Shown here: positions 17,220-55,559 of the stretch, piece after piece
Layout of the letters: every line of letters begins with the position of its first letter
Numbering within the stretch: position 1 is the first letter of the stretch
Source: Porphyra umbilicalis
Taxonomy: Eukaryota > Rhodophyta > Bangiophyceae > Bangiales > Bangiaceae
DNA length: 64,000 nucleotides
Direction of reading: 5' to 3'
NCBI GenBank assembly: GCA_002049455.2
Contig: KV918897.1
Coordinates: 1 to 64,000 of the forward strand
Notes under the pieces: model-generated
The model's input: the letters and a program-made list of their open reading frames with translations, nothing else
What the model was told of the DNA's origin: nothing
The model's database searches: none
Position numbers and translations under genes: made by a program

Positions 17220-17258
<39 letters not shown>

Positions 17259-17336: not shown

Positions 17337-17375
<39 letters not shown>

Positions 17376-27643: not shown

Positions 27644-28812
27644 TGGTGTATGAACCCGAAGGTACTGTACCGATGCCCTTGCAGATTACACTTGGCGTGA
27701 GCCCGTGGATACTGTCGCTGGGGGTGGAGGCGGTTGCATTTGAGGCGGACGCGGAGCGGGAGAAGGCATATGCGGCGGCAATTGCGGGCGCGCTGCGGCA
27801 GGACGTGGGGGTATCTCCGGAATCCGTTTGGGCCAGCACACTCGAGGGAAAGGTGTGCCACAACATTGGGAGGAATCTCGCAACCGGTTGCGACGTGGTG
27901 GAGGGCTTCGTGCACCTCGCGCTTTCCACGACTTATCGGCGGGTCTGTGAGCTGTGGACCGCTCCGCTGCCAGTATTGAACCGACCAGTTCTCTTCGGGG
28001 CCGAAGAGCGGTTCACTGTCCGGCGGCAAGAAATAGTTTTGTGGACCTCTTCCGTTTCAGCTTCGAGTGGGCGAGTATCACGCCCAAGCTCCACGTGCTT
28101 GCATGTCACGCTGCTGAATTGGCTGCAACAATATGGGTCCTTGGCGCTCTGTTACGGACCGGGAATCGAGACCTGGCACTGGTACAGTGCGTTCTCGTTA
28201 CAAGAGACAGCTGATTCGGCTCTATATGAAAAAAAGTGGCCTACACGCACTGGAATGGAAGACTCGCGACCCATATTCCCTTGTACACGATTCTCTTGTA
28301 ACGAGAACGCACTGTACTTCAACCAGAATACCACAGATGCTTCAGCAGCGCCCGATTCGAAGAGTTGCGTGCGGTTGGTCGAACGGGCCCCAGTGAGCCG
28401 GGGCCTTGGAAATCTCGCGTTCAACCGTGGGAAGCGTCGGGCCACGGCTACCGTAGACGCTCGGTGTGCCAAGAAACTAAATGACATGCGGACCGCTCGG
28501 GATCAAATCTGCTACTGTCGCGGCGCGCGCCAGTCGACCGCCTGCGCGGCCACGGCACTTGCCAACGCGGAAAATTGGGCATCCAGCGTCTACCAGGCGG
28601 CGGTTGGCATGATTGCAACTTACCGAGCTGGGGCCGCATTGGCCAACGAGGCAGCTGTCACCGCATCTGTGGCTGAAGCTGCTGTGGCCGCCGAGACCCA
28701 GGCGCTTCTCGAGCGGGCAGAGGAAGCCTGTCTGAAAGCACTACTGCAGGAGTGGATCTATTCCATGTATAGGTTCTTGTGTTGCTGTATGAAAAGGGGC
28801 GCTTCGATATGA
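27643..28812 (+). CDS. unrecognised protein, interrupted in frame by a small inverted-repeat element
   Basis: An ATG at 27,643 opens 389 codons. The N-terminal part (about 1-130) and the C-terminal Ala-rich helical part (about 260-389; VYQAAVGMIATYRAGAAL, ending in a Cys-rich hydrophobic tail) look coding. Codons 181-224 come from a TA-flanked inverted-repeat element (28,185-28,314) whose 132-bp addition preserved the frame. No known domain; may be a decayed gene rather than a live one. Confidence 0.4.
   Translation: MVYEPEGTVPMPLQITLGVSPWILSLGVEAVAFEADAEREKAYAAAIAGALRQDVGVSPESVWASTLEGKVCHNIGRNLATGCDVVEGFVHLALSTTYRRVCELWTAPLPVLNRPVLFGAEERFTVRRQEIVLWTSSVSASSGRVSRPSSTCLHVTLLNWLQQYGSLALCYGPGIETWHWYSAFSLQETADSALYEKKWPTRTGMEDSRPIFPCTRFSCNENALYFNQNTTDASAAPDSKSCVRLVERAPVSRGLGNLAFNRGKRRATATVDARCAKKLNDMRTARDQICYCRGARQSTACAATALANAENWASSVYQAAVGMIATYRAGAALANEAAVTASVAEAAVAAETQALLERAEEACLKALLQEWIYSMYRFLCCCMKRGASI
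28185..28314. mobile_element. 130-bp TA-flanked inverted-repeat element (Tc1/mariner-type MITE)
   Basis: Perfect 23-bp terminal inverted repeats, 28,185-28,207 and 28,292-28,314, beginning CAGTGCGTTCTCG. Flanking dinucleotides are TA on both sides (28,183-28,184 and 28,315-28,316), the target duplication of the IS630-Tc1-mariner superfamily. No internal gene. Confidence 0.85.
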
Positions 28813-29367
28813 CTACTTTCCGCTCCTAACGTCTATTTCCCTGAGAGGATCTATTGATCATCTTAGGATCACTTGATCCCCATTTCCAGTGTGGTCGGAG
28901 GTAAGTAGCTGACACTGTGCACATGGAGGTGTTCACCTCACGTTTGGCACCTGTCCGTTCCGAACATCGACGTTCGCCCCCCCGTTATACTTGTGTCATA
29001 CACGGCCGCATCAATATAGGTATTCGAACCGGGACGTGAAGCACTAACAAAGACAGTTTCTGTACAACATCAGTCGATATTTCCGTAAGAATATTCTAAA
29101 CGCACGCAGGCGAGGACTTTTTTTGGAAAGCCCTTGTCATGTCCCGCACTCTTGTGGCCCTCTGTAACTGTCTTGGAGCATAAAGGACGTTCTTGACGTA
29201 TCGAAGATCAGTTGTAGAAGACAGAGTCGGCCACAAATTTTATCTGCCGGCCCTAGGGACGCGTGTTCGCGGTGCTGTGACACTGAATAGCCCAAAAACG
29301 AGCGTTTGCCGTTGACCCCGTCTCGAACTGTGGGCTAGTTCAGGATCTTCTTCAATAAACAGTCATA
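28813..29367. other. no supported gene
   Basis: Moderate-GC sequence without coding character, between the unknown frame and the left end of an inverted-repeat element. Confidence 0.55.
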
Positions 29368-29919
29368 TGGTGCGTGTCCCAAAAATGAGACATGCGCGTT
29401 TTCTGAAGTACTGACACATCACTGCACGGGCGCAGGCGGCGTGGGGTACGAGAAAACTCTCGACTGGCTTTCATGGAAAGAGCCTCTCCCGACGCGTGCT
29501 TGGCTGACAACTCCTTAATACCCGCCTGTGGGCCCTGTTCTATGGACCTCTTAGATAGCCCCGATCTTGGAGCCAGTCTTTTTCAGGTTCTTGGGGTTAA
29601 AGGTTTGCAACGCCAAAGCTCATGTGCTGACTGGATCTTCGATGAGGGGTGTCCCAAATCGTGTTTTCCTCACAGGGGGCTACATGGGGGTCTTTTTCAC
29701 GTTTTTATTGGTAAGGTGGTGCCCATTTCTTCGTGCACAAATTGTCACTTTCCCCCATGACACGTCAGGATGTGCCGCCTCTGCTAACACTGTCAGGGGC
29801 TGTTCTGGAAACACAGTGGGACCGAATGGGTCACATTACATTATCGGACCGTTGCAGAAGGCCAGTGGGCCGAGAAAAAAAGAAAAAACCGCGATGTCTC
29901 ATTTTTGGGACACGCACCA
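29368..29919. mobile_element. 552-bp TA-flanked inverted-repeat element
   Basis: Left end TGGTGCGTGTCCCAAAAATG continues as a perfect inverted repeat of 26 bp inside TA (29,366-29,367); the right end is its reverse complement, followed by TA (29,920-29,921). Interior frames show no transposase motif, so it is non-autonomous. Its ends differ from those of the 28.2-kb and 56.5-kb elements, so at least three families are present. Confidence 0.8.
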
Positions 29920-31081
29920 TACAAGAAATGTTGATTGCTTCGTAGTCACTGGAAAATGTGACGAATCTTAGATTTCCAACCAGGGCTACCTGCCAGTAGT
30001 ACACGGCGAAAATTAAGGTGCTCGATAATTGCGCGCGACGGTAATCATCGATAAAGTGCATCAGGTATGGGAGCGGTGGCACGAAGGATGCAGCGCGGTC
30101 AGAATACAGGAGGTGGGGATAATGCAGCCTCCGAGTGGGGCGCTGGAGTACACAGCGTGCAGTTCGGCGCTCGGGCTTCGAGCAGGGCATCAAGTGCCCA
30201 CGCCTAGTTAAGACCGCCTCCAGCGGCTCTTTTGGATTTCAGGGCCCAGGAGGCCACCTGATTGGATCGGTCCAACACTTTTGGCTTTCTATCGGCGGTT
30301 GCGATGGCTGGCAGTGGGATTGGAGAACATTACACTTACTGCCTGCACGTCCTCAGTCTTTCCTGAGGAAGTGGACGTGGACCAATCAGCCCATGACACC
30401 TACTCAACAGGCGAGATGCCCTTGAGTCCACTCCCAGTGTGAAGGCAAGTCTCTGATCTGTCTCCGGCTCTCATGCGCATGCGCAAGACATGACATCCGA
30501 CGAGCCCAGTTCGAAGAAGATGCAGTTTACTTCCCGATCCGATAGCGGTCGGATGGGTTCTTTCCATACCATTGGGTTCAACTCAGAGCGCTGATCACGA
30601 TGATGTCAAAACCACGCGGTCCACCCAAGACTATCAACAAACCCAGAGTAATTGGGTTGCCTTCGTTGCCAGCAGAGCTCGTGTTGTCCGGTCCTGCTGG
30701 CCGCGCATCATGGTTGTATGCGGACCCTCCTTTACCATATAGTTGTTGACGTCCAGGGCCGGCCCTCAAGGTGCTTGGAAACATCAGGAGCGAAAGGAGA
30801 GGCGACAGGATGGCGGCACAGCGATCATGAGCTCGGTGCGGGATGATCCGGCGACGGGTGGACGTGGCGGCGAGGAAGACGGGCTGCCAAATCGCTGCTC
30901 CGACACGAGAGTGTGGATCAGAGCCACTTGAGGCCACACGAGAATCGCGGCGCATTCAGGCAACTTCTTCAATGGCATCTTGCTCTTCAAATTCAAAAGA
31001 GCCACCTTGACTTGGCGTGGGCCGCCGATAGGCAATCTCCGCACTTCCAGAGTGAGCTAGTGCGAGGTAGGGAGAAAACAT
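29920..31081. other. no supported gene
   Basis: Mixed-composition DNA; nothing recognisable on either strand. Confidence 0.5.
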
Positions 31082-31656
31082 ACATTAGTCAGCACGGGCG
31101 AGTGTCTGCTCCGTCGTATGGGATAGTGCCTGTTTATTCCATCGAATGAGGCTGCGCCTGTTGATGAATGCCGACGATAGAGTACTGTTTGTGCTGATAT
31201 GTAATGATACGTCTGCCGATGGACCACATTAGTCAGCACGGGCGAGTGTCTTCTCCGTCGTATGGGATAGTGCCTGTTTATTCCATCGAATGAGGCTGCG
31301 CCTGTTGATGAATGCCGACGATAGAGTACTGTTTGTGCTGATATGTAATGATACGTCTGCCGATGGACCACATTAGTCAGCACGGGCGAGTGTCTTCTCC
31401 GTCGTATGGGATAGTGCCTGTTTATTCCATCGAATGAGGCTGCGCCTGTTGATGAATGCCGACGATAGAGTACTGTTTGTGCTGATATGTAATGATACGT
31501 CTGCCGATGGACCACATTAGTCAGCACGGGCGAGTGTCTTCTCCGTCGTATGGGATAGTGCCTGTTTATTCCATCGAATGAGGCTGCGGCTGTTGATAAA
31601 TGCCGACGATTGAGTACTGCTTGTGGTAATATTGAGTAGAACGTCTGCCGATGGAA
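31082..31656. repeat. four 144-bp tandem repeats
   Basis: Units start at 31,082, 31,226, 31,370 and 31,514, each with ACATTAGTCAGCACGGGCGA. Copies 1-3 are nearly identical (copy 1 has TCTGCTCC, the others TCTTCTCC); copy 4 diverges in its second half. Because 144 is a multiple of three, the minus strand stays open through the array, but the 48-residue peptide repeat resembles nothing known and I do not call it a gene. The array ends 8 bp before the tRNA-Leu gene. Confidence 0.95.
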
Positions 31657-31663
31657 CCAAGCA

Positions 31664-31746
31664 GGTCAGACTGCCGAGCGGTCTAAGGCGCTGCGTTCAG
31701 GTCGCAGTCAACATCGTTGGCGTGGGTTCGAATCCCACTCTGATCA
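31664..31746 (+). tRNA. tRNA-Leu(CAG)
   Basis: 83 nt. Acceptor GGTCAGA pairs with TCTGATC (one G-U), discriminator A at 31,746. D-arm TGCCGAGCGGTCTAAGGCG, anticodon stem CTGCG/CGCAG with loop TTCAGGT (anticodon CAG), a long variable arm (TCAACATCGTTGGC) as in all tRNA-Leu, and T-arm GTGGG TTCGAAT CCCAC. No intron. A T5 stretch follows at once. Confidence 0.96.
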
Positions 31747-31749
31747 ATC

Positions 31750-31754
31750 TTTTT
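31750..31754 (+). terminator. Pol III T5 terminator of tRNA-Leu
   Basis: Five T, 4 nt after the discriminator base. Confidence 0.85.
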
Positions 31755-33038
31755 ATCACCTCAAATGAGGTATGTGCGGGGGCACCGGCTCAGGCCCAGT
31801 CTTGACGACGGGCTCTCAGCGTGCACGCACGCGTGTGAACCAATGAGAGCGCTGCGTTCCAATCACGGCTGCTTCATTTCTATAAATCTGCCTCGAACGA
31901 CAGTTCCGCTCACGCAGGCCTTACGCTCAAAATAGGCTCCTTTTGGGACGATTGTGGTCGGGACGTGAGCGTGTGCGAGATTTTCTGGAATATCTCGCAC
32001 ACGAACATGCGTGGCGAGGCCATCAGATGATCCCAGATCGGTTTTTGGACCCGGGTCGACTGTCAGAAAGTAATGCCCACACGTGACTGACCACGATACG
32101 AGGCACCACAAAACGGGGGCAGAGATGGACGATCGTCACTGATTGGGCGCTTGCGGCCACGGCTCTCGCCTGTTTCACAGCAACCGAGATCGCGTGGCTG
32201 GCGTCCATCGATCTCTTTTCACCCGATTTGCGAACATTTCTGCTGCGCCGTTAAGATCACCCCCACCCCAGCACGACGAAAAACAGGACTTAGACGTCAT
32301 ATTCGGGTCGATCACGTTCACATGTGCTCACCGTCAAGACAAAGCCTCAGTGAGATTCCCGTTCAAGATCGTGGGAAATTCAGCAGGAACCTTGCACACG
32401 TTTCTTCGTGCCCCCCTGCATGACCAGGACACGATGCTCAGTTCAGTATGGTGCTTTTCCAAATTTTGCCATGTCCGCGGGCGTGAACGTTTGACCATAC
32501 CCCAACACCCCCTCTGAGTCCCTCAAAATCGCCTGTCTCTCGACGCGGCCCACAGACACGAATGAGCACTCGTGTTCAAATCGTGGCCTGATCGAGACGA
32601 AACGACGAAAGATCGAGACTATCTGATGGCTGGGAAGTGGTCCAGTTGACGGATCACGCTCTGACGGGCACTCTGATGGCCCTTGACCCGAATTGTACTG
32701 CCCCGTTCGATGCCGGTCCACGCTCCGTCCGAATTGGCTTTCAAACACCTTCGGCCCAGGGCTTAATCTGATTGCGCTGTCTAATGCAGAGGCTCTCCTG
32801 GGCCCTGTGCGCGTGTCATGAAAATTACGGAATCTTGCAGCGCTCGGGGGACTCCCATGAGGACGAAATGGCCCGCAAACACCTTCCTCGTGAGATGACC
32901 ATAAAGCGCATCGGAACTTCCGGTACGCGACCTAGGCGTCATTCCATTGGTCCACGCACATCCGGTGGTTTGAACTGAGAATCAGATCCTCTGCCGGCTG
33001 CCAGTGCCCACCAGGAACGAGAAAAGGAGTCAGCACTC
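31755..33038. other. no supported gene
   Basis: Low-signal DNA between tRNA-Leu and the retrotransposon; no coding frame or repeat identified. Confidence 0.5.
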
Positions 33039-33043
33039 GTGTC
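33039..33043. repeat. target site duplication GTGTC, left copy
   Basis: Identical to 43,377-43,381 immediately after the right LTR. A 5-bp duplication is typical of Ty3/gypsy integrase. Confidence 0.95.
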
Positions 33044-33811
33044 TGTGGGGGAAACCCCCTCTCCCCTGATGACGCGATCCCCCCGGTATGAGCCGGGGGA
33101 GGGGTCGCGAGCACCCACGCAATGCCCCTAGAGGGAGCGGGGTGCGGCGCCCCTTCGGGGCGCCTGCCAGGTGGCTCTCAGGGCCACCCCCGGGTCTGAC
33201 ATCCCCCTTGCCCGAAGGCAGGGGGGGACAGGGCCTGACGCGAACGAGGGGCCACGCGACCCCTCGATCCGGGCCCCCTAGAGGGGCCTGGAAGCTTGTG
33301 GAAGCTCCTCTGGCTGGGGAGAAGCCCGGGACCGAGATTAGATCTCGGCCACTATCGATATCCCACGAGGACTTCGATCGGAGAGTTGAAAATCTGGGGA
33401 TAAGTCCCTAGTGATGTATTGGGCAATTTCAGTCCAAGCTGGCTTAAATCCTGGGACCATATCTCTCTTCCAGTGGAAGGGGGTCCCTTGATCCGTGGCA
33501 GGGGCCACCAGGACCCCTCATCAGGGACCGTGGCCCGTCGGGCCCCGGCCCCCCTACGACCGTCTTTTCCTGGGTCGGGATTGTGCACGTCCTGCGTCTT
33601 GTTTCTGAGGGTATATGAGTGTATGCTTTGGGGTCATCGTGCGTACTCGAATAAATCAGCAATGCGTTTGCGTTAGTTCCGGCGTTCTGGTGCGCTCCGC
33701 GCCCTGTGATCCAGGCGTTTGTGTTCTTTCTCCTTTGTGTCGCTCCGCATCCTGTGCTGGGTTTTCTGACGGGGCCTTGCCCCGTCGGCTTTGTGGGCAG
33801 AAACCACTACA
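33044..33811 (+). repeat. 5' LTR
   Basis: Starts TG and ends CA. Carries AATAAA at 33,650-33,655 and several perfect hairpins, for example GGCGCCCC-ttc-GGGGCGCC at 33,156-33,174. Small frames inside it are duplicated in the 3' LTR and are not genes. Confidence 0.97.
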
Positions 33812-33813
33812 TT

Positions 33814-33831
33814 TGGTGGATCAGCGGGGGA
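33814..33831 (+). promoter_or_regulatory. primer-binding site
   Basis: Two bases after the LTR the sequence TGGTGGATCAGCGGGG begins with TGG, complementary to a tRNA 3' CCA. It does not match the initiator-Met type (TGGTATCAGAGC) or the tRNA-Leu in this window, so the primer tRNA is unknown. Confidence 0.6.
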
Positions 33832-33986
33832 CAGGGTCTGGCCCTTCTTGATCAGTCGGGTCTACCCTGTGTCAGTTCTCACGGTGGTCGTTCTGCTGTG
33901 CTTTGTCTTGCCCTTGGGTGTGACTGTTCTGTTGAGATCGTCTTTGAGGATTGATTGTTACCGCAGGAGGACGGAGTCTTCCCGCC

Positions 33987-36008
33987 ATGGACACCACTGG
34001 GGTGGCGGAGACCGGCGCCCCGGGCGCCGGCAACCCGTCACGGGGCGACCGTGACGGAGCCAGCGAGGGCTCGGGGTCTCAGGACCCCGGAGGGATCCCT
34101 CCTCGGCGGGAGCGTCAAGCCGGCACCGCCATGCCGGAGCGTGGCGCGCCGGGAGACGGGGGTGGAGACGGAAGGGTATTCCCGTCTCTCCCCCCCCAAG
34201 GAGCGGGGGATGTAGGCGGAAGGGTATTCCCGTCTCTTCCCCCCCAAGGTGCGGGGGGCGTAGGTGGAAGGGAATTCCCACCTCCTTTCCCCCAAGGTGT
34301 GGAGGGTGGAGCCGGAGGGGAATTCCCGCCTCCATCTCCTCTACCCCCGGGTAGGCGGGACCAAGCGGTCCCCCGTTTACCCTGGGGCCCATATGACGGG
34401 CTGGCGAGAGCCGCCGGCCCACCCCGAACACCTCCTCGTGGAGGTGGTGACCGGGCCCCAACGGGGGCCCAAGACGCGGCTGCCATATCGGCAGCCCTAC
34501 GGGATTCATTGGACGCTTTGATTAGCCCGTTACACGATCGACTGTCTCTCATCGAGACAGCCCTCGGGACCACTAGACGGTCCCGACGCCGACGTCGGCG
34601 CATGAGTTCCTCCTCCTCGGATGGGGAATACTCCGGGGGAGACGGGGGTCGCCCTGTGCCCCGTCGATCGGTCACCCGTGCCCTAGGGCACGAGCTGGGA
34701 GGGGAATCCCACCGTCGGATTCCCCCTAAGATCGTCCCCGCGGACGACCGCTATGCTGCAGTCTTAGACTGCGCAACTTATGCTTTGGCGAATACCGACA
34801 CCCGGTACGACCGGACCATGGCGCACGGCCTAGGCCGTCTGCGTAAGGATGTATCGGCCACTTTTGGCCGTGATGCAGAGTGGGATGGGACGCCCGCCTT
34901 AGGCGTCTTCGAATTTCTCAGCCGCTTCGTAAAAGCGGGTGACGACAATGACGTCTCGGAGGGCCGAGCCCTATATCTCCTTCCCGAGTTCACTAAGGGT
35001 GATCTCAAACGGGAATTGTATACGATCATGCCGTCCCTCCAAGGAGGACGGAGTGGAGAGGTCAGCTCCTACTTGGAACTGATCAACTGGCTCCTCCGCA
35101 AATATGCGGATGAGCAGTCGCTAAGCGACCAAGATGCCATGTTCCATGGGGCCGCCCAAGGGGCGGAGGAAACAGAGAATGAATTCTACGTACGCCTACG
35201 GGGGTTACGTCGCCTGTGTGGATACATTCACACGGAAGGACAGATGAAAAGTCGCTATATGCAGGGGCTGGGTTGGGAGATTCGCGCCGATGTGCGCGAA
35301 CATAACACCCCCAACATGCCAATGGACCTGCTGGTGCAATATGCCCAGCGGAAGGGGGACGTCTGTCGTAGGCGCCTCCAGGAGCAGAAGGATGAAGAAG
35401 ACCGACGGGCCGAGGCCCGTCGGGTGCGTCGTGCTGCTCGACCAGCACCGCGGAAATACGTAACCGCGGCCGTAACAGCCCCACCTCCGGTGGGGCAAGT
35501 TCCTCCGGGTCCCTCCCGATGGGGCCCACCTAAGGTGGGGGAGGTGTACCCCCCCCGGAGGGACCCCCCGAAGGCTGGGGAAGCTGGTCCATCCCGATGG
35601 GGCCCCCCTAAGATAAAGGAGGCCCCTCAAGGACAGGCCCAAGGGGCTTCCGCTAAGGTGGGGGAAGGGCCTCGAGGGCCTTCCCCACGGACTAACCCCA
35701 AGGGGGGAGAAGCGGGTCGCCCCGGGCGACCCCGGACGAATAACTGTCTCGCATGTAACATGCGGGGGCATTTCTTTAGAGAGTGTCCCCGCCTTGATGC
35801 GGGGACAAAGGCTCTGTTGACCAAAGCCTTTCTGGAACGGTGCGAAGAGCGCCGCAAAGCGGACGAGGAAGTCCGTAAGGGACAACCGGTCGCGGCGGTG
35901 AGGGAACATTATGGTCCCCCGTGGTCGTCCTCGGACGACTCACCCTCCCCCGAGAGGGATGCGGCCGAGCAGGACGAGGAGGACAACTCCCCCTCGGGAA
36001 ACGAGTAG
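33987..36008 (+). CDS. gag: Gag polyprotein with CCHC zinc knuckle
   Basis: ATG at 33,987 in CCGCCATGG context; 673 residues. The N-terminal third is Gly/Pro/Arg-rich with an imperfect repeat (GRVFPSLPPQGAG twice, then variants). The middle (about 250-480) is the capsid-like helical region (FEFLSRFVKAGDDNDVSEGRAL, RYMQGLGWEIRADV). The C-terminal part has a second Pro/Gly-rich repeat (WGPPKVGE, WGPPKIKE) and a single zinc knuckle C587-x2-C590-x4-H595-x4-C600 that should bind element RNA. The last codons are Ser-Gly-Asn-Glu-stop and contain the slippery site used to enter pol. Confidence 0.93.
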   Translation: MDTTGVAETGAPGAGNPSRGDRDGASEGSGSQDPGGIPPRRERQAGTAMPERGAPGDGGGDGRVFPSLPPQGAGDVGGRVFPSLPPQGAGGVGGREFPPPFPQGVEGGAGGEFPPPSPLPPGRRDQAVPRLPWGPYDGLARAAGPPRTPPRGGGDRAPTGAQDAAAISAALRDSLDALISPLHDRLSLIETALGTTRRSRRRRRRMSSSSSDGEYSGGDGGRPVPRRSVTRALGHELGGESHRRIPPKIVPADDRYAAVLDCATYALANTDTRYDRTMAHGLGRLRKDVSATFGRDAEWDGTPALGVFEFLSRFVKAGDDNDVSEGRALYLLPEFTKGDLKRELYTIMPSLQGGRSGEVSSYLELINWLLRKYADEQSLSDQDAMFHGAAQGAEETENEFYVRLRGLRRLCGYIHTEGQMKSRYMQGLGWEIRADVREHNTPNMPMDLLVQYAQRKGDVCRRRLQEQKDEEDRRAEARRVRRAARPAPRKYVTAAVTAPPPVGQVPPGPSRWGPPKVGEVYPPRRDPPKAGEAGPSRWGPPKIKEAPQGQAQGASAKVGEGPRGPSPRTNPKGGEAGRPGRPRTNNCLACNMRGHFFRECPRLDAGTKALLTKAFLERCEERRKADEEVRKGQPVAAVREHYGPPWSSSDDSPSPERDAAEQDEEDNSPSGNE

Positions 36009-36030
36009 CGGGTGGGGTTATCCCACCCGC
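35996..36030 (+). promoter_or_regulatory. -1 ribosomal frameshift signal (slippery heptamer, spacer, hairpin)
   Basis: The heptamer G-GGA-AAC at 35,996-36,002 is in the gag frame, two codons before the gag TAG (36,006-36,008). A 5-nt spacer (GAGTA) is followed by a perfect 9-bp stem GCGGGTGGG/CCCACCCGC (36,008-36,016 with 36,022-36,030) and a 5-nt loop. Slipping by -1 gives GGG AAA CGA GTA, which enters the pol frame exactly. All three elements of a classical eukaryotic -1 signal are present; function is inferred. Confidence 0.88.
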
Positions 36031-39000
36031 CCGGGAGACGCAAGGGGTCGACCGGAGATGCAAGTCATCTCGTAGGGCCGGGAGAAACCGGCCTAGTCGA
36101 GTAGTGGGGGCCTCCCAAGGGAGACCCCCAAAGGGAACGCCTTGCGCGTTCATGCCCTCCTCTAGTTACCAACTAGCCGTCCGATTATTCCTGACGGCAG
36201 GATTCGATCTCACTACCCGGGCTATATTGGATACGGGTAGTGGCCCAACGCTAATAGACCGGCGGCTACTGCCGGTCGACACCCCGCTACAACCGCTGGG
36301 TGATCTCGCGAAGATGTTCCATGATGTCAATGGGGGCTGGCTCCCCATTGTTGGAGCTGTATGTCTTGGTGTGACCCTTGGGGGTCAGACCTCCTACATC
36401 TCCTTCGGAGTCGTGAACAATATGAGTGTCCCAGCTATTTTGGGCACCTCCTTTATTGACGTTGCAACAAAAAACATTGCAACCCAGGAGCAACATGTGG
36501 AACTCCTAGACGGCACCAAGGTGCCGATCAAACGGAGGGGAGCCCCTAGGGGACGCCCCGATCCCTCCATTTCGGCGGTCTGTGCTTGCCCCGAGGGGCT
36601 AACGGCTCAACTGAAGCCGGCCCGGAAGACCTGGGTTCAACCCGGGACGATAGCCCATGTTCCCGGAAGAAGTACATACACGGGGCATGGCCTCGTGAGA
36701 GGGCGACCGCCTTTGTACCACAAGCATGGTCTACAGGTCGCCCAAGGCCCTGCCATAATGATGGCAGACGAGCCCATAACCATCCAGGTGATGCACCTGG
36801 GTGTTACGCCGTTGCGGCTAACCACCGATATGACCATCGGGTACATCGACGCCCACGAGGGGCCGACGTACGAGGTCTCGGAAAGCGAGCTCAAGGAGCT
36901 CGCTACACCCCCCAAGGGGGTAGAGGGTGCACCTCTACCGAAGGTGGATGTTTCTTCGGTGCCGGCGGAGTGGTCGGGGCCCGTAAAGGCCCTCCTCCAA
37001 AAGCATTCCTCCCTTTGGGAGGGAAAGCTCGGCTTAATTCGAGGGGTGGAACACCGAATTCGACTGAAGCCTGGGGCTGTCCCCGTGAGACAACACCCGT
37101 ACAAGGCCGGGCCGATGGCCCGGGAGAGAGAAAAGGGTGAAGTCGAGCGTATGCGCTCGATGGACGTCACTGAGCCCGCCAGTGGGGAATGGGCTAGCCC
37201 CGTAGTGATGGTACCGAAGCCTGATGGTTCGGTACGCTTCTGTATCGATTACAGAAAGCTCAACTTGATGACTATCAAGGATGCGTATCCCATCCCACGG
37301 ATGGATGAATGCATCGACTCCCTAGGGGACGCCAGGGTGTTCTCCACCCTGGATTGTAATGCGGGTTACTGGCAAATACCAGTAGCCGAGGAGGACAAGC
37401 ATCTCACGGCTTTCACGTGCCACTCGGGCGCGTGGCAGTGCGTGCGCCTTCCCTTTGGGTTGTGCAACGCCCCTGCGACTTTCCAACGCGCTATGGATAT
37501 GATCCTAGCCGGCGTGAAGTGGCAGATATGTTTGGTGTATCTGGATGATGTGATTGTTTTCTCGGGTTCCCCCGAGGAACACTTACAGCACCTTGATGAG
37601 GTGCTGACCCTGCTCGGGAAGGCAGGGGTCACCTTGAAGGCGTCTAAGTGCCACTTCTTCCAGGAGGAAGTGGAATACCTTGGTCATGTGATCCGACCAG
37701 GACGGGTACATGTCCTGGAGAAAAACCTCCGGGCGCTTCGGGGTCTCCGTTATCCGGAAACCCAAACCCAGATGAAGAGCTTTCTGGGTATGTGCGGCGT
37801 ATATCGCCGCTTCGTAGCAGGCTTCGCTAAGATAGCGAAGCCACTAACGGCGCTTACAAGCACCAAGCTTCCTAAGAAGCTTCCTCCACCCTCAGGGAAG
37901 GAGACGGACGCCTTTGAGATGCTCCGAGGACGTCTATTAGACGCCCCTATCCTAGCCCTGCCCAAGAGACACGGGCATTATATCGTCGATGTCGACGCCA
38001 GCTATGAACAGCTGGGTTGTTGCCTACAGCAACAACAGTCCGACGGGGAATACCACCCCATCGGCTACTATAGCCGTGCTCTTCTCCCTGCGGAGAAGAA
38101 CTACTTCGCCACGGAGATCGAGGCGCTAGGCGTCGTCTGGGCTGTGACCTATTTACGGTCCTACCTAGAAGGTGCGGAATTTGTGGTGCGGTGCGATCAC
38201 CGCGCCCTGTTATCGGTTCTCACTAGTATGAGTCCGAATGCTCGGATTAACCGATGGCGACTCCGACTATCGGAGTACAATTATGAAATACGGCATAAGC
38301 CGGGAAAGGATCACAAGGTGGCAGACGCGCTATCGCGTCTCCCTACAGAGGGTTTGGACACCTCGCCCCTGGACGAGGATATCCCCGTCCTAGCTGTCGA
38401 GACCCGGGCCAGTGACGTCTTACAAGAAGCGTCACCGGAGGAGGCCCCTATGGGGGCCCTGACGGCCCGAGAGATTATCCTGGGCCAGGCTGAGGACACC
38501 TTTTGCCAGGCCAGGCTTAAAGAGCTCGATGATCTTTCGCCCCCCGACCCCACGTGGAGTCGTCAGGCGTTCTTCTTCCGAGAAAAGAACGGGCTACTCT
38601 GCCGTCGCTCGGTGTACGGACGGGAAACCCAAGTGGTTATCCCCGAGGCGCTAAAGAAGCGCCTCCTAACTCACCAACACCAGTCGGTGTTAGCCGGGCA
38701 TCCCGGCTCGAGGAAGATGTATAACACCCTCCGTAGGTATGTGTACTGGCCTACAATGGTCGTTGACGTGTACAAGCACGTGGAGCAATGCCCCGCGTGC
38801 GCCAAGAACCGTCTCTCAGAGAGAAAACATACGACGGTGATGAAGTTGTTCGCCGCCGACGAGCCCTTCTCGGGGCTCGCCATGGACCTGTTGGGCCCAC
38901 TGCCCACCTCTAGAGGGGGGCACAAGCACGTCCTGGTCATCTGTGACCGGTTCACGAACTTGACAAGAGCGATCCCCCTGAGGGAAGCCACGGCCCTGAC

Positions 39001-40066
39001 CGTGGCATCAGCCTTTATAGATACATGGGTTGCCGCCTACGGCATCCCCGACACTGTCCTTACGGACAACGGACCGCAGTTTGCCTCGGTATATTACCAG
39101 GGCATCCTGGGTTTGCTCGGTATAGCCTCGAACTATACCTCGCCTTATCACCCGCAGACGAACGGGCAGGTGGAGCGGTATAACCGCACCCTCGCTCGAC
39201 AGCTCCGCTGCTATGTGGCAGAGCACCAAGCCGAATGGGACAGCCATCTGTCCCTCTTGACAACTGCGTACAATACGCAGGTCCATTCTAGCACTGGGGA
39301 AATCCCCTTTGCTTTCGTGAGCCCGAGGCGGCTCCAACTGATTGGGATTGAGAGGATGCCTCGGCTAAGACAGGCCGAGGAACGACCCGTCGACGCCAGC
39401 TCGGCGGCGGAACAATATGTTGAGGACCTGAAGGCCCTCATTCCCAAGGTCCGGGAGCACCTGGGGAAAGCCCAGGCAGCGTACAAGCGCGCCTTCGATG
39501 CGCGCGCTCGAGAGAAGAATAACCAGCTAAAGGCTGGGGACTGGGTCTATCTGGATGCCCACTCCCGCTCGCCAAAGAAGCTTGGGTTTAAGACCCAGGG
39601 GCCTTATATGGTACTACAGACCGATGGGTATCGATTCCTGGTAGAGAGCCCCAGGGGCATCAGGACGGTGAGCAGTGACCATGTCACTGGAGCTCCCACG
39701 CCCCCGGCGAGGGATGCTAAGTGGACCCGTGCCCTGAAGGCACAGGCCCTCTTTAAGGAGGGGACCCACCTTAAGGATGGTCCCGAATACGTGTTTGAAA
39801 AATTTATCAAACATGGGTGGAATGATGACGGGCAATTGAAGCTCTTAGTCAAATGGTTTGGGTTTCCCGAAGGGGAAGCCACGTGGCAATTTGCCTCTTC
39901 TCTTCCGAGAGAAGCCCTCCGGAAATACTGTCTCCGGAAGAAAATTAAGCTCCCCGCCTTGACGCGGGAAGGGGTATACTTCTCTGACCAAGTCAAGAAA
40001 AGGGTACAAGACCTACGAGTCGCTCGGGCGGCCGTAGAGACAAAGGTCACAAAGAAGAGGGGCTAA
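35996..40066 (+). CDS. pol: Pol polyprotein (PR-RT-RNaseH-IN-chromodomain), in the -1 frame
   Basis: The open pol frame starts upstream of the gag stop and overlaps gag by 88 nt; expression is expected by -1 frameshifting at 35,996. Counting from 35,921: aspartic protease ILDTGSGPTLI (D104); reverse transcriptase with VPKPDGSVRFCIDYRKLN, FSTLDCNAGYWQIP, LPFGLCNAPATFQR and YLDD (540-543); RNase H with VDASYEQLGCCLQQ and the YFATEIEALGVVWA block; integrase zinc region (AGHPGSRKMY ... CPAC) and catalytic D989, D1049, E1085 (35 residues between the last two); then a chromodomain-like module at about 1290-1335 (LLVKWFGFPEGEATW) that may steer integration to particular chromatin. No stops or frameshifts were seen. 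Confidence 0.96.
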   Translation, partial: GKRVAGGVIPPARETQGVDRRCKSSRRAGRNRPSRVVGASQGRPPKGTPCAFMPSSSYQLAVRLFLTAGFDLTTRAILDTGSGPTLIDRRLLPVDTPLQPLGDLAKMFHDVNGGWLPIVGAVCLGVTLGGQTSYISFGVVNNMSVPAILGTSFIDVATKNIATQEQHVELLDGTKVPIKRRGAPRGRPDPSISAVCACPEGLTAQLKPARKTWVQPGTIAHVPGRSTYTGHGLVRGRPPLYHKHGLQVAQGPAIMMADEPITIQVMHLGVTPLRLTTDMTIGYIDAHEGPTYEVSESELKELATPPKGVEGAPLPKVDVSSVPAEWSGPVKALLQKHSSLWEGKLGLIRGVEHRIRLKPGAVPVRQHPYKAGPMAREREKGEVERMRSMDVTEPASGEWASPVVMVPKPDGSVRFCIDYRKLNLMTIKDAYPIPRMDECIDSLGDARVFSTLDCNAGYWQIPVAEEDKHLTAFTCHSGAWQCVRLPFGLCNAPATFQRAMDMILAGVKWQICLVYLDDVIVFSGSPEEHLQHLDEVLTLLGKAGVTLKASKCHFFQEEVEYLGHVIRPGRVHVLEKNLRALRGLRYPETQTQMKSFLGMCGVYRRFVAGFAKIAKPLTALTSTKLPKKLPPPSGKETDAFEMLRGRLLDAPILALPKRHGHYIVDVDASYEQLGCCLQQQQSDGEYHPIGYYSRALLPAEKNYFATEIEALGVVWAVTYLRSYLEGAEFVVRCDHRALLSVLTSMSPNARINRWRLRLSEYNYEIRHKPGKDHKVADALSRLPTEGLDTSPLDEDIPVLAVETRASDVLQEASPEEAPMGALTAREIILGQAEDTFCQARLKELDDLSPPDPTWSRQAFFFREKNGLLCRRSVYGRETQVVIPEALKKRLLTHQHQSVLAGHPGSRKMYNTLRRYVYWPTMVVDVYKHVEQCPACAKNRLSERKHTTVMKLFAADEPFSGLAMDLLGPLPTSRGGHKHVLVICDRFTNLTRAIPLREATALTVASAFIDTWVAAYGIPDTVLTDNGPQFASVYYQGILGLLGIASNYTSPYHPQTNGQVERYNRTLARQLRCYVAEHQAEWDSHLSLLTTAYNTQVHSSTGEIPFAFVSPRRLQLIGIERMPRLRQAEERPVDASSAAEQYVEDLKALIPKVREHLGKAQAAYKRAFDARAREKNNQLKAGDWVYLDAHSRSPKKLGFKTQGPYMVLQTDGYRFLVESPRGIRTVSSDHVTGAPTPPARDAKWTRALKAQALFKEGTHLKDGPEYVFEKFIKHGWNDDGQLKLLVKWFGFPEGEATWQFASSLPREALRKYCLRKKIKLPALTREGVYFSDQVKKRVQDLRVARAAVETKVTKKRG

Positions 40067-40196
40067 GCCCCTTTATTCCCTACGGGGCCCTCTCGCACTC
40101 TCCCCCACAGTGCGGCACCTCCCTTTACAAAGGGCGGTGAAGGGTAACACAACCAAAGACCGAGGGACAGGGGTGCCAAGCACCCCTGGTGACAAG

Positions 40197-42236
40197 TCAC
40201 CAACCCCCGGAGCGAGAACCAAAGTCAGGGTTATAACCCTGACCGGGATCATCATCGCGCGAGTAATACCCCGGCCCCGAGAAGGTCGGGGGTGTCGCCG
40301 AGGGACCAGTCGCCGTCCCATAAGGGACAGGAATAGCGACACCAGAGCCCGCCCCATAAGGGGATGGGGTAGCCGATCCCGAGCCCGCCCCATAATGGGA
40401 CGGGGTAGCCGATCCCGAGCCCGCCCCATAAGGGGGCGGGGCTACCGAACCCAAGGTCGCCCCGTAAGGGGACGGAACAGAAGAGCCAGGCCCCACCCCG
40501 TAGTGGGGTGGGGAAGGGGACGGCGGACGCTGTAGCGCCGCCGACGAAATACCACCCCCGGCCGGAGCCGGGGGTGACGCCATGTTGCGAATGGCCCATC
40601 CCGCCAAGACGGTATTGGTCTCGGCCACGGCCGCGCCATACTCCTCCGCCAAGAGGCGGCGGATTGAGTCGACTGTACTCAAGGAGTACAGCACATCCGC
40701 TTCTCGGTCACCCATAGGGCGTGACACGATAACGGCCATCTCGTTGCGAAGCCGCACCAAGGTGCGGCTTAAGGCCATCATCAAGGTATGATCCACCCCG
40801 TTGGTAAGGATCGGGGGAAGCTCCCCTAGGGAGCGGGCCAAGCCATCCCACACCGCGCGCCGCACAGGCCGCGGGGTCCCCAATTGGGCGGCCCCGTCCC
40901 ACGAGAACAAGGGAAGGGCCGCCAACGGCGGACCCGAACGTCCCCCAATAAGGGGGACCGACCCTCCTCCGGGGTAGGCACGGCGCGATCGGCCAAAGCG
41001 TACACCCCCACGGGGGGTGTAAGGACGAGAGACCGCCCCCCCAAGGGGCGAGGCCGGATACGGCACCCCCGCGAAGCTCGCGGGGGGCGACGCCGGCGGT
41101 GCCGCCGGGGGAGCCAAAAGGGCCGCCGGACCGTAACGGTTCGGCCCGGCTGTGGCCAAGTCCCGATCAAGGGGACGAAGACGCAGTTCGTGAGTGACAT
41201 CCCTCCCATAAGGGAGGGTGGAGTCACCAAGGCCCTCCATGAGGACCAAGACCCCGTCATCGTCAAGTACCTTGGCACACCGGAAGACCCCTCGGGGGCT
41301 CCCATCATGCAGGAGCCACGACTCCTTCCCATGCTCCTCCACAAGGCGGAGGAGCTCTAACCCGGCCTCCAAGAGGGGCCGAGCGGACGGATCGGCCGAG
41401 CACAGTCGCTCTGCCGTGAGCTCAACAAAAGCCGTCCGCAGGACCAGGGGGAGACGCCACAGATGGCCATGATGGCGGATGCTGCCGACGAAGACGTCGG
41501 CCACCTCGGCGGCCCAAAGGGTCGCCAACATAATATGGTAGGGTCCCCCGAGGACCTCTCCCATCAGCTTGCTGCCACGCAGCGCCACCATCTGTGGCAT
41601 CCGCGCGGCCATACCGCGCGGCACCTCGACCGACGCCCACCAAAGGGGGGCGATCGGATACAGGGCCTTGCGCCGAGATACCGGAACTTCTCGGACCTCC
41701 CGCTGCTCATGGAGCACCAGGACGCCCAGGGTAGTCCGAATCGTCCACTCCCCCAGGGCGCCGGGTACAAAGTACCCGCGGTCCTCCTCCCCCAACTTGG
41801 GGGGGGTGCCAGGGTAGTAGTCCCACGAGAAGTAGGCCTTATCGCCTACCTCCGGGGGGAGGTCACGCTCCGCCAAATGGCGAAGCACCTGACACACCCG
41901 CCAGTCCTCCTGGCGGCGGAGAAAGGGGAAGTCAGTTGCCGTCCCCTCGGGAACGGCGTACAACGGGCCATAGTTGGCCCGGATGGTCGTCCATAGACGG
42001 ACCATGCGGCGGCCCTCAAGGACCGCATACCGTTGCTCCACCAGGGACCCCCCGAGGTCCCAGGGGAACCGGCGAAAAGAGTCGTCGACGACGGCGGGAG
42101 TCGGCCAAGAAGCCGACAGGAGGGAGGCCAGGGTGCCGTCAATCTCCTCCTCCTCGCCGAGGACGTCACCAGGGGCACCGCCCCGACTGTCGACCGCCAT
42201 GGCGGCCGCACCGTGGGCCGCATCGGCCGACGCCAT
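40197..42236 (-). CDS. antisense accessory protein of the retrotransposon, unrecognised
   Basis: A 679-codon open frame opposite to gag-pol, between pol and the 3' LTR, with an ATG at 42,236 (earlier in-frame codons lack ATG). The central part reads like a folded protein rich in Trp, Tyr and hydrophobic residues (DWRVCQVLRHLAERDLPPEV, DKAYFSWDYYPGTPP, YHIMLATLWAAEVADVFVGS, LWRLPLVLRTAFVELTAERL). The C-terminal 100 residues are a degenerate Pro-Tyr-Gly repeat (SPYGAGSGSATP and variants). No domain is recognised. Antisense frames in this slot are known from some large plant Ty3/gypsy elements, where their role is unclear; homology to those is not claimed. A Gag-like or RNA-binding role is only a guess. 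Confidence 0.75.
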   Translation of the reverse strand: MASADAAHGAAAMAVDSRGGAPGDVLGEEEEIDGTLASLLSASWPTPAVVDDSFRRFPWDLGGSLVEQRYAVLEGRRMVRLWTTIRANYGPLYAVPEGTATDFPFLRRQEDWRVCQVLRHLAERDLPPEVGDKAYFSWDYYPGTPPKLGEEDRGYFVPGALGEWTIRTTLGVLVLHEQREVREVPVSRRKALYPIAPLWWASVEVPRGMAARMPQMVALRGSKLMGEVLGGPYHIMLATLWAAEVADVFVGSIRHHGHLWRLPLVLRTAFVELTAERLCSADPSARPLLEAGLELLRLVEEHGKESWLLHDGSPRGVFRCAKVLDDDGVLVLMEGLGDSTLPYGRDVTHELRLRPLDRDLATAGPNRYGPAALLAPPAAPPASPPASFAGVPYPASPLGGAVSRPYTPRGGVRFGRSRRAYPGGGSVPLIGGRSGPPLAALPLFSWDGAAQLGTPRPVRRAVWDGLARSLGELPPILTNGVDHTLMMALSRTLVRLRNEMAVIVSRPMGDREADVLYSLSTVDSIRRLLAEEYGAAVAETNTVLAGWAIRNMASPPAPAGGGISSAALQRPPSPSPPHYGVGPGSSVPSPYGATLGSVAPPPYGAGSGSATPSHYGAGSGSATPSPYGAGSGVAIPVPYGTATGPSATPPTFSGPGYYSRDDDPGQGYNPDFGSRSGGW

Positions 42237-42593
42237 CGGACCCCGCGAGACGGGGCCCCCAAGAAGTCCGAAGAGCCCCACCCGTGGGCGGGGCACGAGG
42301 TCGGCGAGGAGGGGGGAAGAACCCCGGACACGCGCTCTCGGCGCTGTCCCACCTCGTGACGACGAGGGTGCCCGCGGGACACCCGAGTAGCCCGGTCCCC
42401 CCAACGAGGGGGACCGTTTTGTATGCCCTGGGGGGGCTCACCGAGGCCCTCGTGGGGCCCGAGTCCGGGGGCGGCCCGCCAGGATGTCCCACCGAGGGGC
42501 CCTGGAGAGGCAAGGCCGGACGAACCGCCGGGGGCTCCCCCTGGCCAGTGTGTGGGCTGTTGGACACAGCCCCGGGTCTGCGAGACGCAGGCC

Positions 42594-42608
42594 CTAAGGT
42601 GGGGAATA
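42594..42608 (+). promoter_or_regulatory. polypurine tract region before the 3' LTR
   Basis: AAGGTGGGGAA is a purine-rich stretch interrupted by one T and ends five bases short of the 3' LTR. It is the only candidate plus-strand primer here and is weaker than usual. Confidence 0.45.
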
Positions 42609-43376
42609 TGTGGGGGAAACCCCCTCTCCCCTGATGACGCGATCCCCCCGGTATGAGCCGGGGGAGGGGTCGCGAGCACCCACGCAATGCCCCTAGAGGG
42701 AGCGGGGTGCGGCGCCCCTTCGGGGCGCCTGCCAGGTGGCTCTCAGGGCCACCCCCGGGTCTGACATCCCCCTTGCCCGAAGGCAGGGGGGGACAGGGCC
42801 TGACGCGAACGAGGGGCCACGCGACCCCTCGATCCGGGCCCCCTAGAGGGGCCTGGAAGCTTGTGGAAGCTCCTCTGGCTGGGGAGAAGCCCGGGACCGA
42901 GATTAGATCTCGGCCACTATCGATATCCCACGAGGACTTCGATCGGAGAGTTGAAAATCTGGGGATAAGTCCCTAGTGATGTATTGGGCAATTTCAGTCC
43001 AAGCTGGCTTAAATCCTGGGACCATATCTCTCTTCCAGTGGAAGGGGGTCCCTTGATCCGTGGCAGGGGCCACCAGGACCCCTCATCAGGGACCGTGGCC
43101 CGTCGGGCCCCGGCCCCCCTACGACCGTCTTTTCCTGGGTCGGGATTGTGCACGTCCTGCGTCTTGTTTCTGAGGGTATATGAGTGTATGCTTTGGGGTC
43201 ATCGTGCGTACTCGAATAAATCAGCGTTGCGTTTGCGTTAGTTCCGGCGTTCTGGTGCGCTCCGCGCCCTGTGATCCAGGCGTTTGTGTTCTTTCTCCTT
43301 TGTGTCGCTCCGCATCCTGTGCTGGGTTTTCTGACGGGGCCTTGCCCCGTCGGCTTTGTGGGCAGAAACCACTACA
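42609..43376 (+). repeat. 3' LTR
   Basis: 768 bp, identical to the 5' LTR except GT for AA at 43,226-43,227. The AATAAA at 43,215-43,220 should direct 3' end formation of the element RNA. Confidence 0.97.
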
Positions 43377-43381
43377 GTGTC
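43377..43381. repeat. target site duplication GTGTC, right copy
   Basis: Matches 33,039-33,043. Confidence 0.95.
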
Positions 43382-47814: not shown

Positions 47815-48183
47815 CGTGATGCCGTTGCGTCTACCAATGACGGTGATGCTAGGCACGATGACTGCTGCAGTCCAACGGCCCGATCCCACACCCCAAGCTA
47901 CTGGCTAGTTGCCTTTGCCGACAACGTCGCGTCGCCAAGTGCTCCATCTGCAACTTTCTCGGCTTTCTTTCTTGAGCAAGACTCTTGCATCTTGTTTATC
48001 ACGGCATCGGCGCTCATAAAACTTGTGCTTTGTGTCCCAGAGAGATGCAGGAAAGACTGTTTGCGTCTCTCCATCGAGCCAGGCCATGAGGGGTCGCCGT
48101 TGCGCCACGATCTGAAAACCGGCACAAGGCGACCGCGGTCGCGTCTTTGTCGGGGATGTGTCCATCCCCTCAAATTGAGAACC
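47815..48183. other. intergenic, no gene seen
   Basis: Short gap between two plus-strand frames; nothing recognised. Confidence 0.5.
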
Positions 48184-55265: not shown

Positions 55266-55559
55266 CCACTGAGTCTAGCGCGGCAGTAGCAAGCGACTCT
55301 ATGAACAGAGATCAAAAACGAACAGCGATACAATGGTACAAGAAAAAGAGGGGGATTCCACGACGACACACCCAGGCAAAAGCAAGAAATATGACCACAA
55401 CGAGACACGCGAGCGGGTGAATACCGCGGGTGCATCGTGGACTGCTGCCGCGACGACAGCACGAGTGGGTCCCATGAGCGCAACGATACTGGTGAAGCGA
55501 CTGCTCAAGCAAGGATGGTTGGAGCGATGTTGATGGTGCAACTGACGACGACCTAGGGG

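Follow-up and report, generated by a model that had tools for sequence, protein, structure and literature searches.

Short perfect hairpins in excess along a Ty3/Gypsy retrotransposon of the red alga Porphyra umbilicalis

We analysed a stretch of 64,000 nt from Porphyra umbilicalis (contig KV918897.1, positions 1 to 64,000; the window) and found that the recently inserted, chromovirus-like Ty3/Gypsy LTR retrotransposon at positions 33044..43376 is packed with short perfect hairpins, as the initial annotation had proposed. Perfect inverted repeats with a stem of at least 7 bp and a loop of at most 10 nt, which are the stems counted below unless stated otherwise, number 95 in the element and 12.6 ± 4.1 in 12 dinucleotide shuffles of its local 150-nt blocks. 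We consider it rather probable that the sequence was selected to fold back locally as many such hairpins, scattered at random. Genome-wide folding is known from some RNA viruses and was unexpected in an LTR retrotransposon.

The element and its hairpins

The element has LTRs with the ends TG..CA, a target-site duplication and the domain order RT-RNase H-integrase, as expected for Ty3/Gypsy. Its parts are:

33039..33043: left copy of the target-site duplication (GTGTC), immediately upstream of the 5' LTR
33044..33811, plus strand: 5' LTR, 768 bp, TG...CA, with 766/768 bases as in the 3' LTR
33951..36008, plus strand: gag-like ORF of 685 aa (ORF call), 24 stems
36185..40066, plus strand: analysed part of the pol ORF with RT, RNase H, integrase and a weak chromodomain (Pfam), 37 stems
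40197..42404, minus strand: antisense ORF of 735 aa with 58 homologues, 18 stems
42609..43376, plus strand: 3' LTR, 768 bp, near-identical to the 5' LTR
43377..43381: right copy of the target-site duplication (GTGTC), immediately downstream of the 3' LTR

The LTRs differ by one adjacent dinucleotide. A Pfam search of the gag-like ORF gave no match. In pol, the chromodomain PF00385 (residues 1205-1241, E 8.2e-4) scores 19.7 bits and does not reach the curated cut-off of 25.1; many homologues carry a chromodomain. The antisense ORF is conserved among relatives and has 64 matches in the same genome. No relatives were found in IMG/VR and GTDB, and the plasmid collection contained distant Gypsy-like records only, three of which were used as controls.

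Eight of the nine hairpins cited initially lie exactly where they had been placed, while the first was off by 10 (33,146-33,164 instead of a start at 33,156). Examples are:

33146..33164: 8 bp, loop TTC, arms GGCGCCCC/GGGGCGCC, position checked in the sequence
37332..37352: 8 bp, loop 5, within the RT domain (sequence and Pfam)
37820..37842: 10 bp, loop AGA
40224..40243: perfect palindrome of 20 bp
40749..40770: 10 bp, loop of 2 nt

The excess over the shuffles of the whole element is also seen with stems of at least 6 bp (169 vs 41.7) and of at least 8 bp (37 vs 3.8). All three ORFs are hairpin-rich, in line with the initial description: when each was compared with 40 codon- and dinucleotide-preserving shuffles, these contained on average 5.1 stems for gag (maximum 13), 5.3 for pol (maximum 9) and 5.4 for the antisense ORF (maximum 13). 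The LTR, however, is not equally dense as had been claimed, since the 5' LTR has five stems in 768 bp and none in its middle 420 bp. Nor does the picture of an ordered, end-to-end tiling hold, because non-overlapping stems of at least 6 bp are spaced at random (CV 0.95; chance expectation 0.99 ± 0.08). The stems are mostly 6-10 bp long, loops most often have 3-5 nt and are at background level above 11, and the closing base pair prefers 5'C-G3' (70:28). Loops are A-rich (0.31 vs 0.21) with no clear strand bias, and no loop motif or packaging-signal consensus was seen by eye.

Host genes such as MSH4 had been said to lack this feature, and this is borne out: there is no stem excess in MSH4 (3 vs 2.6 in shuffles), in the ORFs 392-3466 (6 vs 8.0) and 18737-19900 (3 vs 3.2) or in the ORF 58753-59778 (2 vs 1.3), all in the same window. 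GC-rich stretches outside the element also exceed their shuffles, though proportionally far less (8-16 kb, 71 vs 48; 16-24 kb, 40 vs 28; 43.4-50 kb, 34 vs 13), and their folding is near normal. The loop spectrum outside the element is flat; within the window, the short-loop peak exists inside the element only.

Folding energy and the two strands

The mean MFED of the element is 18.3% on the sense strand (27 fragments of 350 nt, 27/27 positive) and 16.6% on the antisense strand. Against codon- and dinucleotide-preserving shuffles, the comparison that had been suggested at the outset, the excess persists in gag (12.8%, 5 fragments), pol (17.5%, 11 fragments) and the antisense ORF (12.9%, 6 fragments), while MSH4 gave -0.6%. 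In 150-nt windows the folding z-score is -2.43 for the element (136 windows), -0.39 for the rest of the 64,000 nt (244 windows) and -0.34 for outside windows matched to the GC content of the element (105 windows). Moderately folded outside stretches are located at 28-32 kb (z -1.07) and 51.4-55.4 kb (z -1.01, plus strand).

Genome-scale ordered RNA structure (GORS) was reportedly named in 2004 and is said to have remained puzzling in animal RNA viruses. The proposed resemblance holds for the size of the MFED, here in an LTR element, and fails for the order. According to PMC7642675, MFED is 7.5-10.7% in HCV and about 15% in SARS-CoV-2. Like the viruses described there, the element shows a folding excess over dinucleotide-preserving controls, similar or larger here, and stem-loops throughout the coding sequence, beyond known regulatory elements, with pair positions mostly unconserved between relatives. 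Unlike them, it is an integrated LTR retrotransposon and not a positive-strand RNA virus genome, its hairpins are short, perfect and Watson-Crick, its strands are equally folded, and it shares its genome with Copia elements without folding excess. Among retroelements, the genomic RNAs of Ty1, Ty3 and HIV-1 have well-folded regions, as predicted for this element, and up to 30% of Ty1 and Ty3 RNA is reported to lie in low-SHAPE/low-entropy regions; a genome-wide excess against shuffles is not reported for them in the excerpted part of PMC11381356. We read the structure as GORS-like and maintained by selection, and shielding from RNAi or compaction would be its presumable benefit.

The initial reading as RNA structure is supported by the genome-wide folding, but this is not visibly a matter of the sense RNA alone. 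As sense and antisense strands of the element fold equally, selection probably sees the genomic RNA and its complement. In classical GORS, by contrast, the sense genomic RNA alone would be under selection, for its stability, packaging or shielding, and the antisense strand would fold merely because Watson-Crick pairing is reproduced in it. We regard this explanation as possible but doubtful. It matches the size and spread of the folding, and the related 41% family is sense-biased (MFED 9.9-13.6 sense, 7.0-9.3 antisense). Moreover, MFED is likewise high on the two strands of the ssRNA phages measured in the same pipeline (MS2, Qbeta, PP7, GA, AP205 and SP; 19.7-29.0% sense vs 16.3-27.1% antisense), and perfect inverted repeats are in excess in them as well. 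However, the sense-antisense z difference is -0.24 to +0.45 in the clade of the element and its 52% relatives (7 loci, relative to the pol strand), while it is -0.89 to 0.00 in the six phages, two of them clearly below zero; the sense strand of the phages is more folded on average. The phages have 1.4-4.2 perfect stems/kb at lower GC, compared to 9.4 in the element, and their stems hold more G-T pairs and mismatches; the Watson-Crick purity of the stems here is above that of phages.

The strand question was also addressed by one-sided unique changes in stems. We counted 105 G-T and 132 A-C changes, vs 98 and 86 in chance stems (p 0.077); G-U is not favoured, and the trend runs opposite to the sense-RNA expectation. 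The power of this test is limited, because the phage control shows a modest excess of G-T over A-C (16.5 vs 9.6) and the rRNA control has too few sites to be used. Equal folding of the strands may be the mere symmetry of perfect Watson-Crick hairpins. The G-U fraction of folds was dropped as a strand marker, as it seems to track strand composition. The antisense gene as the cause of strand symmetry is weakened by the 52% loci, which fold symmetrically too; no antisense homologue beside them was among the matches listed (61/228 candidates scored).

If selection favours local folding, as we prefer to think, its target would be less the individual hairpins than the overall degree of self-pairing. 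Stems would turn over between lineages and, while present, would be protected and repaired by compensatory changes. The complement seen by selection could be minus-strand cDNA or an antisense RNA. Hairpins that are tight and local would interfere with sense-antisense annealing and with the access of small guide RNAs to their target, and would make the genome more compact for packaging. Their stems, with no more than 10 bp, would not be long enough for Dicer-type enzymes to act on. A more specific proposal, which we make tentatively and hold to be possible rather than probable, is a two-strand "anti-duplex armour", in which Dicer-escaping hairpins would block sense/antisense (or RNA/cDNA) annealing and small-RNA targeting. 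The host genome harbours two Piwi-domain loci and one tandem RNase III locus. In maize, according to PMC10760457, transposon transcripts also contain local hairpins, and these miRNA-like, pre-miRNA-like structures correlate with more small RNAs; unlike them, the stems described here do not exceed about 10 bp and are spread over the element.

Stems in diverged copies

The copy comparison comprised 13 loci of the same genome. L012-L015 are 99% identical and have 1-3 changes each in 541 stem bases; the diverged copies are 80-89% identical to the window element. In pol of the diverged copies L024, L025 and L028, stems were substituted at rates of 0.061, 0.129 and 0.074, compared to 0.146, 0.244 and 0.130 in flanks and 0.169, 0.242 and 0.184 in loops. 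Stem positions were thus substituted at about half the rate of loops and flanks, and when the stem mask was rotated more than 400 times, no rotation gave rates as low. The same was found at third codon positions (0.111, 0.239 and 0.144 in stems vs 0.262, 0.440 and 0.242 elsewhere), and 19, 14 and 16 of the 37 pol stems were kept identical (expected 5.6, 1.3 and 6.6). Conservation in gag was as in pol for L024 and L028 and weaker for L025 (P 0.07).

Compensatory changes, for which a search in related elements had been recommended, were found: two-sided changes stayed Watson-Crick in 53/99 cases in short-loop stems, compared to 16/48 in chance stems with long loops (p 0.023; three overlapping base copies combined). 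Examples are:

36461..36483: hairpin with a double change that keeps pairing, 36463/36481 being T-A in this element but C-G in L024, L025, L028 and L029
39486..39508: hairpin with the pair 39490/39502 (overlapping stem) being C-G, T-A or G-C depending on the copy
39897..39914: hairpin of 7 bp in which the pair 39901/39910 is T-A here, C-G in L024, L025 and L028, and T-G in L029

In pol of L025 there are 42 stems and the MFED is 24%, yet only 15/37 window stems are intact at 80% identity, and in the 52% locus L020 1/22 is intact. The folding property is kept while individual pairings turn over between relatives.

The diverged copies speak for selection on stems. They share ancestry, and the comparisons are therefore not independent; with 4 stops in L024 and at least one each in L025, L026 and L028, they are not clean live controls. 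Stem conservation was not significant in pol of L029, the most decayed copy tested (12 stops listed; P 0.24; 7/37 stems identical vs 3.9 expected; gag borderline, P 0.059), or, by rotation, in the antisense-gene part (P 0.20, 0.08 and 0.08), and between 52% families there is no more than a hint of it (P 0.04-0.21). The closer copies with stops showed little difference, stems and other positions being substituted at 0.026 vs 0.029 (L017) and 0.022 vs 0.028 (L018); L016 showed 0.030 in stems vs 0.044 elsewhere overall. At codon positions 1+2, stems changed more (L016, 0.028 vs 0.018; L017, 0.022 vs 0.017).

The copies also bear on a mutational origin, in which template switching or fold-back copying during reverse transcription would write one arm complementary to its partner, protein selection would filter the products, and the folds would be functionless. 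Arm writing would be expected to yield perfect Watson-Crick stems with short loops at random spacing, as observed. PMC8794818 and PMC8604942 describe, respectively, that template switching makes and repairs perfect stems and that it homogenises inverted-repeat arms in yeast genes; the single adjacent dinucleotide by which the LTRs differ would fit as well. Nevertheless, we consider this origin improbable. Stems are substitution cold spots between copies, their own loops changing about twice as fast, and the raised, clustered change in stems which marks template switching was not found in pol of L024, L025 and L028. Unlike template-switch products, the stems are protected from change and accumulate in particular element lineages, and Copia, also RT-mobilised in the same genome, is without folding excess. 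Pol stems show no increase in amino-acid divergence, while in the antisense ORF it was higher in stems in 8/11 comparisons, clearly in one; covariation at the protein level gave no signal. Finally, no stem of at least 11 bp exists in the window-family loci counted; this ceiling of 10 bp is an observation on related copies, and the 52% set contains two 11-bp stems.

Codon phase gives arm writing some support. Synonymous positions had been proposed to be chosen for pairing, but amino-acid positions join in: the codon phase that needs them to pair accounts for 34/89 stems and is as common as the other phases (gag 11/21, the largest contribution; pol 12/39; antisense ORF 11/29). Modelled on random proteins, synonymous-only selection gave a fraction of 0.146 ± 0.04, and purely synonymous selection is disfavoured by codon phase. 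Arm writing gave 0.256 ± 0.06 vs 0.382 observed (P 0.02), the closest of the forward models and still short of it. In MSH4, encodable sites in the amino-acid-dependent phase are also raised (ratio 1.70), and random proteins therefore overstate the contrast. Template switching is disfavoured as the sole cause, but may be a source of raw stems for selection.

Graded folding in one genome

The Copia loci of the same genome have an MFED of -0.1% at pol-like GC (best 20 of 150 matches listed); as the copies resemble each other, they are not 20 independent families. They contain 93 short-loop perfect stems, where longer loops would predict 51, again in copies which are alike. Since Copia lacks the folding excess and the host ORFs of the window show no surplus of hairpins, a host-wide mutation bias finds no support. 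Base composition, codon use or low-complexity repeats are hardly credible as the cause: the element is GC-rich with tandem repeats of 36 and 48 bp, and GC-rich window parts are also rich in inverted repeats, but the excess disappears in each of the three kinds of shuffle (local dinucleotide, codon, codon+dinucleotide), which refutes an artefact for the element as a whole, and neither the equal-GC outside windows nor Copia fold comparably.

Three unrelated Gypsy elements have MFED values of 4.2, 2.8 and 1.5%, with perfect stems about two-fold over shuffles, and folding is graded from little to strong among the Gypsy families of the genome. In one set of 19 loci, MFED was computed for 9; L050, L053, L055, L057 and L058 are 92-98% alike and in effect one family, and L056 belongs to the same family as L019 (98.6%).

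In one seaweed genome, related retroelement families range from little through moderate to extreme structure, and many decaying copies exist beside them. The equal folding of both strands sets the element apart from the usual sense-RNA reading. If the armour proposal is true, it would be an evolved counter-defence graded across the Gypsy lineages of one genome, with Copia lacking the folding excess. As structured and unstructured families exist side by side, the question of what genome-wide folding protects against becomes testable: small RNAs, expression and copy number of structured and unstructured elements can be compared in the same cells.

Excess of short stem-loops and local folding

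The Ty3/Gypsy LTR retrotransposon under study consists of the following parts:

33,044-43,376: element, bounded by two LTRs of 768 bp (TG..CA) identical at 766 of 768 bases
Either side of the element: target duplication GTGTC
33951-36008 (+): gag-like ORF without Pfam match
36185-40066 (+): analysed part of the pol ORF, with RT, RNase H and integrase by Pfam, and a chromodomain score below threshold
40197-42404 (-): antisense ORF (735 aa) lacking a Pfam match

Pol and the end of gag, whose stop is at 36006-36008, overlap in different frames (35921-36184), the pol frame being open from 35921. The LTRs differ only in one adjacent dinucleotide, AA versus GT (33661-33662 and 43226-43227); the stem GCAA/TTGC (4 bp) is complete with AA, a single event that could be due to chance. 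Tandem repeats of 48 bp in gag (34152-34343) and of 36 bp in the C-terminal part of the antisense ORF (40313-40528) contain hairpins in some units. The protein collection contains 58 homologues of the antisense ORF (49-90% identity). In the searched genome (83.8 Mb, 665 contigs) this ORF has 64 matches and pol 41; it is possibly a new gene of this retrotransposon clade that the antisense ORF represents.

The initial annotation described the element as rich in short perfect stem-loops. Indeed, we found 95 perfect inverted repeats (stem of at least 7 bp, loop of at most 10 nt; hereafter stems), while local dinucleotide shuffles contain 12.6 ± 4.1. Eight of the nine hairpins cited as examples were exactly placed and the first was displaced by ten bases. 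The 24, 37 and 18 stems in gag, pol and the antisense ORF dropped to 2.6, 5.8 and 4.6 upon synonymous-codon shuffling, and to 5.1, 5.3 and 5.4 when codons and dinucleotides were preserved. By the latter shuffles, four other ORFs of the window showed no excess. One is MSH4, whose 75% identity to a Pyropia vietnamensis MSH4 marks the host as a Bangiales-like red alga; another is the ORF 58753-59778 (341 aa), which by eye we take to resemble a Tc1/IS630-type transposase. Within the element, loops of 3-5 nt are the most frequent and those longer than 11 nt occur at background level, while the spectrum elsewhere in the window is flat. Inverted repeats exceed shuffles 7.5-fold in the element versus 1.4- to 2.7-fold in GC-rich parts of the window.

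Folding energy also differed from shuffled sequence, with a mean local z of -2.43 in the element and -0.39 outside. The very GC-rich stretches 14001-18000 and 48001-49000 harbour many inverted repeats, moderately over shuffles, at near-normal folding; 28001-32000 and 51377-55376 show moderately raised folding (z about -1) with few perfect stems; and an array of 144-bp tandem repeats (31082-31655) lies immediately upstream of the insertion.

With 350-nt fragments, much as is done for genome-scale ordered RNA structure (GORS) of RNA viruses, the folding-energy excess over shuffles (MFED) was 18.3% in sense, all 27 fragments being positive, and 16.6% in antisense. The suggested resemblance to viral GORS holds in size: PMC7642675 gives 1.1% for unstructured viruses, 7.5-10.7% in HCV, about 15% in SARS-CoV-2 and 23.4% at maximum. 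Three unrelated Gypsy elements gave 4.2, 2.8 and 1.5% and contained roughly double the perfect stems of their shuffles. With a 150-nt pipeline the element reached 19.3%, and six RNA phages were similar or higher (19.7-29.0%). Structure in the genomic RNA of Ty1, Ty3 and HIV has been described before (PMC11381356); we found no report of GORS in an LTR retrotransposon in the open PMC literature, as judged by titles and abstract openings.

Construction and conservation of the stems

Contrary to the proposal, the hairpins do not tile the element end to end, since their placement is random (spacing CV 0.95 versus 0.99 by chance). Stem lengths in the excess run from 4 to 10 bp, and no longer stem occurs in those window-family loci that were counted. 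As the closing pair, 5'C-G3' predominates over G-C (70 versus 28). The idea that synonymous positions are chosen for pairing is disfavoured as a full account, because stems are about as frequent (34 of 89) in the codon phase where positions 1 and 2 have to pair mutually as in the other phases. Codon-phase models on random proteins gave 0.146 ± 0.04 for synonymous-only selection, 0.226 for selection with conservative replacements and 0.256 for mutation writing the arms. Amino-acid divergence was not elevated in pol stems and was slightly higher in those of the antisense ORF (8 of 11 comparisons).

Using the stems of the window copy, we compared pol substitution in diverged copies of the same genome. 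The rates in stems, loops and flanks were 0.061, 0.169 and 0.146 in L024, 0.129, 0.242 and 0.244 in L025, and 0.074, 0.184 and 0.130 in L028; rotating the stem mask more than 400 times never gave a value as low as the stem rate. L029, a copy with many stops, had an ordinary stem rate in pol (0.131, rotation P 0.24). Gag stems were conserved likewise in L024 and L028 and more weakly in L025 (P 0.07) and L029 (P 0.059); in the antisense-gene part, conservation was not significant by rotation. The effect was strongest at third codon positions (stems versus elsewhere: L024 0.111 versus 0.262, L025 0.239 versus 0.440, L028 0.144 versus 0.242), but small in L029 (0.217 versus 0.246). Closer copies showed a smaller overall effect (stems versus rest: L016 0.030 versus 0.044, L017 0.026 versus 0.029, L018 0.022 versus 0.028), and in L016 and L017 stems were not protected at first and second codon positions. 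Identical stems were retained at 19 of 37 sites in L024 (5.6 expected) and 14 of 37 in L025 (1.3 expected). Between the two families at 52% identity, the corresponding comparison was only suggestive of stem conservation (P 0.04-0.21).

Compensatory changes were also detected: among two-sided changes, 53 of 99 in short-loop stems kept Watson-Crick pairing versus 16 of 48 in long-loop chance stems (p 0.023; counts pooled from three overlapping base copies). The pair 39490/39502, for example, occurs as C-G, T-A and G-C. If the stems were written by a mutation process, they would be expected to be hot spots of change rather than constrained sites. We consider it well supported that selection maintains pervasive local self-pairing in this lineage.

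Element families and strands

The trait is a property of certain Gypsy lineages and rises towards the window clade, as follows from the grading of MFED. Copia elements of the same genome with GC like pol (20 of 150 listed loci) had -0.1%, two distant Gypsy loci (30% identity) 3-4% in pol, and the 41% family 10-14% in sense and 7-9% in antisense. Both-strand values were 14-16% for the 52% families and 17-24% for the window clade. Among 9 of 19 loci computed, MFED was 15-23% in the window family, 10-15% in the 52% families and 8-9% in L029. Stems per kb amounted to 5.1-10.7, 3.9-4.7 and 3.0, respectively. The 41% family had 1.4-2.0, low yet over the long-loop expectation, and the 20 Copia loci 0.3-2.1 (93 in total versus 51 expected from longer loops, copies alike).

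With its sense bias and few perfect stems, the 41% family (L050, L051, L053, L055, L057, L058, L059; G000 C64, C204, C329, C58, C269, C71, C24), which shares the genome, has a pattern closer to classical GORS. Gypsy-type pol proteins are also encoded by three records of the plasmid collection, a 'Wolbachia' plasmid (L008) and two from 'Bacillus licheniformis' (L009 and L010), which seem to be eukaryotic contaminants.

Since G-T pairs as G-U in RNA, selection on sense RNA only would tolerate G-T more than A-C. One-sided changes to G-T and A-C numbered 105 versus 132 in stems and 98 versus 86 in chance stems. In seven window-clade and 52% loci both strands fold equally (z differences -0.24 to +0.45), and the 41% family leans to sense (-0.06 to -0.84; five loci, in effect one family). 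RNA phages, at -0.89 to 0.00, also lean to sense, with a clear bias in two of the six. By the phage control, the strand test has limited power. Selected self-pairing likely acts on both strands.

Possible function

Blocking of RNA duplexes with the complement or with small RNAs is suggested as a possible function by the strand symmetry, the limit in stem length, and the Piwi-domain loci and one tandem RNase III locus of the host genome: self-pairing of the element would hinder the formation of such duplexes. Just as naturally, self-pairing may serve to compact the RNA for packaging, which would need no strand symmetry.
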